DNA of 45,788 nt from contig JACPVC010000087.1 of the NCBI GenBank assembly GCA_016191955.1, forward strand, positions 1 through 45,788, given 5' to 3'. The stretch comes from Chloroflexota bacterium. Its GTDB lineage: Bacteria > Chloroflexota > Anaerolineae > Anaerolineales > Villigracilaceae. Made by a program: the position numbers and the translations under genes. Below are positions 44,422-45,788 of this stretch, in pieces. The notes below the pieces were generated by a model that saw nothing but the letters and a program-made list of their open reading frames with translations, had not been told where the DNA came from and made no database searches. Every line of letters begins with the position of its first letter. The first letter of the stretch is position 1.

Positions 44422-45060
44422 TTACTGCTTGCGCGACTCCTTGATCATGACGAGGCTCCCCTTGCCACCGGGAACAGCGCCGTTGATGGCGATCAGGTTG
44501 CGTTCAGCATCCACCATCACGACTTTAATGTTCTGCGCTGTAACACGGTCCACGCCCATATGACCGGCGCCACGAGCACCCTTTAACACACGACCCGGCG
44601 TAGTGCCGGAGCCGCGCGAACCAGGCGCACGATTGCGGTCGGAAGTACCATGAGTTGCGTTCATACCGTGGAAGTGGTAGCGCTTCACGCCGCCAGCAAA
44701 ACCTTTACCCTTGCTGATACCGATCACATCCACGCGCTCACCAACGGCAAAAGCATCGCCGACAGTAACTTTGTCGCCGATCTTCAAGCCATGTTCCTTG
44801 GCGCGGAATTCGCGAAGATATCGCAGAGGGGGAATTTCATTGGCTTTCAAATGTCCAACCTGCCCCTGTGTGAGGCGTTTGGGATTTGTTTCGCCAAAAC
44901 CAAGTTGCACTGCCGAATACCCTTCCTTCTCTGGCGCGCGAACCTGGGTAACAAAACAAGGCCCAGCTTCAATGAGGGTCACTGCATAAGCAACGCCTTG
45001 CTCATCGAAGATCTGGGTCATGCCGATCTTTCGACCTATCAGCCCTTTCAACATGCTCAA
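44422..45060 (-). CDS. rplC: Ribosomal protein L3
   Basis: LIGRKIGMTQIFDEQG...KGKGFAGGVKRYHFHGMNATHG. Confidence 0.97.
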   Translation of the reverse strand: MSMLKGLIGRKIGMTQIFDEQGVAYAVTLIEAGPCFVTQVRAPEKEGYSAVQLGFGETNPKRLTQGQVGHLKANEIPPLRYLREFRAKEHGLKIGDKVTVGDAFAVGERVDVIGISKGKGFAGGVKRYHFHGMNATHGTSDRNRAPGSRGSGTTPGRVLKGARGAGHMGVDRVTAQNIKVVMVDAERNLIAINGAVPGGKGSLVMIKESRKQ

Positions 45061-45123
45061 TTTTCTCCTTTACAAGATATTGACGAGACTGCCAGTCGGG
45101 GCAACGACCGCATCATCTCCGTG

Positions 45124-45187
45124 CGGCACAGTCAGATGGTCTGTGAGGCGAACCTTGTTGTTCGCGCACAGACCAACTCTTGTGCCG
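45124..45187 (-). promoter_or_regulatory. Nested three-stem structured element upstream of rplC (candidate r-protein leader)
   Basis: CGGCACA/TGTGCCG, GGTCTGTG/CACAGACC and GCGAAC/GTTCGC nested collinearly. Confidence 0.55.
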
Positions 45188-45199
45188 TCTCTAACTTAC

Positions 45200-45227
45200 C
45201 GTCATTCGGGAATTATCCCGAATGACG
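45200..45227. repeat. 12-bp perfect hairpin between rpsJ and rplC
   Basis: CGTCATTCGGGA-atta-TCCCGAATGACG; no clear T-tract on the minus strand. Confidence 0.6.
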
Positions 45228-45239
45228 CGTTATTCAAAA

Positions 45240-45548
45240 CTAGATTTTGATCTCGATATCAACGCCTGCGGGCAGATTAAGCCGCATCAACATGTCGATT
45301 GTCTTCGAGTCGGGATCCAACACATCGATCAAGCGATTGTGTGTGCGGATCTCAAAGTGCTCATGGGAATCCTTGTCAATGAAAGCAGAGCGCCGTATTG
45401 TATAGCGTTCTTTCTTGCTTGGCAAGGGTACGGGACCAACAACATGGGCGCCTGTGCGTTCGGCGGTTTCAACAATCCGCTTGGCGGACTGGTCGAGAAC
45501 GCGATGGTCATATGCCTTGAGGCGAATACGTATTTTTTGTTTAGCCAT
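45240..45548 (-). CDS. rpsJ: Ribosomal protein S10
   Basis: [40 protein letters not shown]. Confidence 0.97.
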
Positions 45549-45559
45549 TTCTCTCCGCC

Positions 45560-45788
45560 TTACGCAATGATCTTGGTGACGACACCGGCGCCGACGGTGA
45601 GACCGCCTTCACGAATGGCGAACTTGGAACCCTGCTCGAGAGCCACTGGCACGATCAACTCCACCGTCAGGTTCACATTGTCACCCGGCATCACCATTTC
45701 CACGCCTTCGGGAAGGGCAATGTCACCCGTCACATCCATCGTGCGGATGTAAAACTGGGGTCGATAGCCAGAGAAGAACGCCTTGTGA
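45560..45788 (-). CDS. tuf: Elongation factor Tu, C-terminal part (truncated by window edge)
   Basis: Minus strand: [75 protein letters not shown]. Confidence 0.96.

Follow-up and report, generated by a model that had tools for sequence, protein, structure and literature searches.

The gap between rpsJ and rplC on the minus strand of an Anaerolineales (Villigracilaceae) genome carries an RNA element of two hairpins, A and B. This element is probably a new lineage-specific r-leader of the rplC-rplD-rplW-rplB... part of the S10 cluster, with one of the proteins encoded in the operon binding it as a translational operator. We favor this reading because a two-hairpin RNA is conserved here in mRNA orientation, in single copy, and always just upstream of rplC. 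The S10 cluster encodes many core ribosomal proteins, and most of what is understood about its feedback control comes from Enterobacteria. The element offers a well-defined candidate control point in a phylum for which we found no r-leader of the S10 operon described. With a compact hairpin, bases that do not vary, and few candidate ligands, the proposal is directly testable.

At the end of the window (the whole 45,788-nt stretch of DNA analyzed here), the minus strand contains, in order, the end of tuf, rpsJ, the gap, rplC, rplD (encoding L4), rplW, rplB, and the remaining S10-spc cluster (Table 1). Relatives of its S10 were found in 49 of 61 genomes. The distance from the rpsJ stop codon to the rplC ATG was measured as 185 nt, in agreement with an earlier reading of this DNA (hereafter, the original prediction), which had put the gap at ~180 nt and had considered it unusually long. 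As tuf ends 11 nt upstream of rpsJ, there is no space in the window for a leader ahead of rpsJ. The gap itself folds at -83.8 kcal/mol, compared with -57.0 kcal/mol for shuffled sequences (z = -6.2), and none of 200 shuffles folded as well.

Table 1. Features of the rpsJ-rplC region, with positions in the window
Feature	Position	Strand	Basis
rpsJ (S10), upstream of the element	45240..45548	-	ORF, 102 aa
Candidate sigma70-type promoter in rpsJ: -35 TTGCCA (45425-45420), 17-nt spacer, -10 TACAAT (45402-45397)	45397..45425	-	Consensus scan
Hairpin GTCATTCGGG/CCCGAATGAC, directly 3' of the rpsJ stop	45201..45226	-	Sequence, fold
Hairpin A (stem of the original prediction)	45124..45187	-	Covariation of basal helix, two-pair segment, and upper arm
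Hairpin B, core	45085..45119	-	Invariant loop bases, covariation, model R2 matches before rplC
Shine-Dalgarno AAGGAG of rplC, presumed regulated site	45065..45070	-	Sequence
rplC (L3), ATG at 45054, first gene under presumed control	44422..45054	-	ORF

The original prediction had placed a nested element of three stems at 45108-45187. All three stems are present on the minus strand, namely an outer stem pairing CGGCACA (45187-45181) with TGTGCCG (45130-45124), a middle stem pairing GGTCTGTG (45174-45167) with CACAGACC (45145-45138), and an inner stem pairing GCGAAC (45165-45160) with GTTCGC (45153-45148) around the loop aacaag. They do not, however, form one uninterrupted hairpin, as internal loops (agagtt/atctgac and c/ct) intervene. 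Hairpin A accordingly consists of a basal helix (CGGCACA/TGTGCCG), a conserved internal loop (AG/GAC), a two-pair segment (AG/CU), and a variable upper arm. The interval originally proposed contains hairpin A but cuts through hairpin B, which is the most conserved part. Hairpin B lies 3' of hairpin A and is followed by the rplC Shine-Dalgarno sequence; it is built from the base GAGAU/GUCUC, a bulged GA, UG/CA, a bulged purine, the upper helix CGGUCG/CGACUG, and the loop UUGCCC.

The gap was compared across 30 related genomes and across the 80 top-ranking rplC loci from a large genome collection. An absent or unstructured gap in close relatives would speak against the element; instead, the gaps of Anaerolineales hold the same structured element almost without exception. 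An alignment of 50 distinct homologous copies was used for covariation analysis of a 28-pair structure comprising both hairpins, in which 95.3% of the cells were paired and 21 of the 28 pairs had changed on both sides. The covariation score was 0.398, compared with 0.199 for shuffled and at most 0.10 for slid alignments, and every covariation measure exceeded all 500 shuffles and all slides. Applied independently to the same alignment, RNAalifold returned nearly the same fold. The resulting consensus reads CAGCGCA-AG-AG...CU-GAC-UGCGCUG for hairpin A, with a variable arm, and GAGAU-GA-UG-CRGYCN-loop(GCCC)-NGRCYG-R-CA-GUCUC for hairpin B, with the Shine-Dalgarno sequence conserved downstream of the two. 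Compensatory events, defined as pair-to-pair double changes, were then placed on an independent rplC codon tree, which yielded 93 events, in contrast to 5-11 in controls whose 3' partners had been slid by 1-3 columns. These events were distributed over the base of hairpin A (25), its two-pair segment (5), its upper arm (36), and hairpin B (27). The covariation that the original prediction had proposed as a check is therefore present in the alignment and on the tree. Furthermore, G-U pairs were common, and one U-G pair was constant in 50 of 50 rows, which fits an RNA made from the minus (mRNA) strand.

Alternative folds of the gap were weighed on the same alignment and tree. The original prediction had drawn a further stem, CCGCA/TGCGG, as mutually exclusive with the outer stem; this stem is drawable, but it showed one double change on the tree, and its pairing was no better than that of shuffles. 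An outer helix, GAGAC/GTCTC, that would close a three-way junction was rejected, as it acquired one compensatory event and 11 breaks even though 88.8% of its cells were paired; the helix is lost beyond the close relatives of the window genome. A two-state switch between the hairpins and CCGCA/TGCGG (or GAGAC/GUCUC) would draw on the alternative pairs being drawable in most rows (88.7% of cells) and on the window's genus, where the 5' GAGAC can pair with GUCUC and, in computed ensembles, competes with the hairpin B base. Such a switch is nonetheless the least probable of the explanations we considered, given a single compensatory event for each alternative stem against 27 for hairpin B, 9-11 breaks, and the absence of the alternative pairing from other families.

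Searches with covariance models delimited the distribution of the element. Within the order, model R1 detected the element in 204 of 251 genomes (128 of 139 when restricted to good genomes) and in 88 of 104 genera, at rpsJ-rplC and in essentially a single copy per genome. In a search of 400 genomes of the phylum, its matches were confined to the order, plus weak matches in the class. Second R1 matches in two genomes (G127 and G276) were discarded, as the extra sites were absent or had E > 0.4 with model R2, which represents hairpin B alone. Model R2 extended hairpin B to further families across much of the class; beyond the order, hairpin A usually is absent or cannot be recognized, and hairpin B shifts to just before the Shine-Dalgarno sequence. 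R2 also gave weak matches (E 0.002-0.008) in other classes of the phylum, which were taken as chance, since they do not lie at rplC. Among 31 diverse class members, AUGAUG and CAGU of the hairpin B internal loop (GAUGAUG/CAGU) were invariant, while 9 of the 13 hairpin B pairs had changes on both sides. Because hairpin B persists across the class where hairpin A is missing or unrecognizable, we take hairpin B, and not the stem of the original prediction, as the ancient functional core.

The position of hairpin B relative to rplC varies within the class. In other orders, it often abuts the rplC Shine-Dalgarno sequence, with CAGUCCC a few nucleotides before GGAGG, as exemplified by CAGUCCC-AAGGAGG at locus L204. 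In three distant members (L102, L109, and L110), AAGGAGG precedes hairpin B and the rplC start codon follows it, an arrangement in which the hairpin would be looped out between the Shine-Dalgarno sequence and the AUG. At locus L031, an unusually long leader places hairpin B 156 nt upstream of rplC, with another structured stretch in between. Within the Anaerolineales, two families gave no model match, f10 (G045, G058, G070, and G083) and f15 (G050 and its relatives), and the element was absent from the rpsJ-rplC gaps inspected in G045 and G058 (f10) and G050 (f15). Both families have lost the element, which weighs against the r-leader reading, and they could serve as a natural contrast in a study of regulation.

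Two properties by which r-leaders are recognized can be read from these data, namely a consistent position upstream of r-protein genes, as all high-scoring loci inspected with R1 or R2 sit before rplC, and a structure supported by the covariation described above. A riboswitch controlling ribosomal-protein synthesis in response to a metabolite or ion is very unlikely. Although a pocket might arise from two adjoining conserved hairpins whose internal loops are invariant, together with the conserved GCCC loop, the element belongs to a single operon, occurs once per genome and never before a metabolic gene, and matches no Rfam riboswitch; moreover, its core in most of the class is one 35-nt hairpin, which is small for a metabolite pocket.

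Alternatively, the element might serve the tuf-rpsJ-rplC mRNA as a structural or processing element (an RNase site, a decay barrier, or a ribosome standby site) without feedback. Such elements need no ligand, and the gap is an intergenic spacer of a polycistronic cluster that has another hairpin directly after rpsJ. This latter hairpin, a perfect 10-bp stem separate from hairpins A and B and without a T-run in the window, may act in processing or as a weak terminator; its site is common among relatives, while its sequence and strength vary. Different hairpins, often with an AUUAUUU tail, were observed at this site in relatives. A terminator scan of 45040-45640 found no intrinsic terminator. 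We consider a purely structural or processing role improbable, although less so than a riboswitch, since the unpaired GAUGAUG, CAG, GCCC, AAG, and AC are invariant throughout the class, which points to specific recognition, and since the position of the element is tied to the rplC Shine-Dalgarno sequence and not to rpsJ (L222, L031).

The r-leader reading also bears on where transcription of the regulated genes might begin. A consensus scan located a candidate promoter within rpsJ, with a predicted start near 45390. Codon use was assessed in 52 distinct rpsJ genes of at least 95% protein identity, in which the mean modal-codon use was 0.67. The only codons with a modal use of at least 0.95 were P41 CCC, L42 TTG, P43 CCA, E47 GAA, F49 TTT, T50 ACA, I51 ATA, and R53 CGC. 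In the Villigracilaceae, these frozen synonymous codons (41-53) correspond to both promoter hexamers and their edges, and the TTGCCA and TACAAT hexamers are identical and in the same place in nearly all family members. Families that lack the site within rpsJ (L093-L100, L151-L155, and L173) carry strong extended -10 promoters within the gap, 115-145 nt upstream of hairpin B. With a candidate promoter in either place, the element would be a true 5' leader of an rplC transcript. The control point would thereby lie inside the super-operon, with a promoter-like site preserved in the codons of rpsJ.

As an r-leader, the element would respond to an operon-encoded large-subunit protein in excess over rRNA. 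This primary-binding protein would bind hairpin B at its invariant internal loop (GA bulge, UG/CA, and bulged purine) and, in the Anaerolineales, the GCCC loop and hairpin A's AG/GAC loop as well. Once bound, it would lock the hairpin beside the rplC Shine-Dalgarno sequence and block initiation, and the genes downstream of rplC would follow by translational coupling. Computed accessibility of the Shine-Dalgarno sequence with and without hairpin B revealed no consistent switch, under a constraint that was too broad, and we therefore prefer a steric block over sequestration of the ribosome-binding site by base pairing.

Mimicry of rRNA is common among r-leaders but not obligatory. Searching four rRNA loci with model R2 gave a best score of 12.7 bits, with the upper arm deleted. 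Pattern scans of 23S rRNA in both strand orders gave 0 and 2 matches, compared with 2.7 and 2.4 in shuffled sequences, and those of 16S rRNA gave 4 and 0 matches, compared with 1.3 and 1.8; all of the 16S matches had two mismatches and lay within the shuffled range. A pair of 8-mers in 23S domain II (UGGCAGUC...GGAGAUGA) that resembles a permuted copy was dismissed, as it is absent from the 23S rRNA of another family. With no rRNA mimicry above the shuffle level, the sequence does not decide the ligand. The best guess for a ligand is a protein already known as a ligand in another lineage (PMC7247131); r-leaders act on the operons to which they belong, and in Escherichia coli the S10 operon is regulated by L4 (PMC7247131; PMC10931766). 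By this rule, L4 is our first candidate, and we regard it as the likeliest ligand, with a chance somewhat short of even, whereas L3, the second candidate, is rather unlikely, and L2, L23, L22, or another protein would rank after these two. Were L4 the ligand, the element would represent an independent solution for the same protein; were it L3, a new r-leader ligand would be added. We also entertain, again as a rather unlikely possibility, a more specific version, in which a protein new as an r-leader ligand (most simply L3, the product of the first gene under control) has hairpin B as its operator, the loop motif that it recognizes does not copy the 23S site, and the rpsJ promoter separates tuf-rpsJ from the rest of the cluster in the str-S10 super-operon.

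The element is very probably previously undescribed. Rfam 15 yielded nothing at or above the gathering cut-off for the window and 10 relatives, and scans by E-value returned chance matches only; the comparison with known r-protein leaders that the original prediction had suggested thus gave no match. The published surveys that we consulted list no Chloroflexota r-leader before rplC, and literature searches that did not extend to subscription journals found no further candidate; an earlier description is possible. The earlier proposal of an independent r-leader before rplC is therefore borne out in its position, its covariation, and its lack of an Rfam r-leader match, but its essential element is hairpin B.

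Among known structured RNAs, Chloroflexi-1 RNA (RF01698), reported from Chloroflexus aggregans, is a structured RNA candidate from the same phylum, but it matched neither the window nor its relatives in the Rfam scans (PMC2864571). The surveyed r-leader candidates of the S10 cluster come from Alphaproteobacteria (L2), Archaeoglobi (L4), and Peptostreptococcaceae (an rpsJ motif) (PMC7247131; PMC11109978). The alphaproteobacterial L2 r-leader (rplB) and the Clostridioides difficile rpsJ motif RLC-47-1 (PMC11109978) are, like our element, lineage-specific, associated with the S10 cluster, and defined by covariation, yet they occupy other positions (before rplB and before rpsJ, respectively) in other phyla and are set apart by lineage and position. 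The S10 leader of E. coli and other Enterobacteria, whose ligand is L4, shares with our element the operon and a presumed structured feedback on S10-cluster proteins. That leader lies before rpsJ, whereas the Chloroflexota element follows rpsJ and precedes rplC and belongs to another phylum; the enterobacterial leader acts on both transcription and translation and has no recognizable sequence or structure in common with the element. The E. coli leader uses a terminator and is not widely conserved (PMC10931766), and this intrinsic terminator has no counterpart in the window at 45040-45640. Finally, although it is archaeal and gave no model match here, the Archaeoglobi L4 r-leader (Eckert and Weinberg 2020, PMC7247131) precedes rplC-rplD-rplW-rplB and thus occupies the same position relative to rplC as the element described here.
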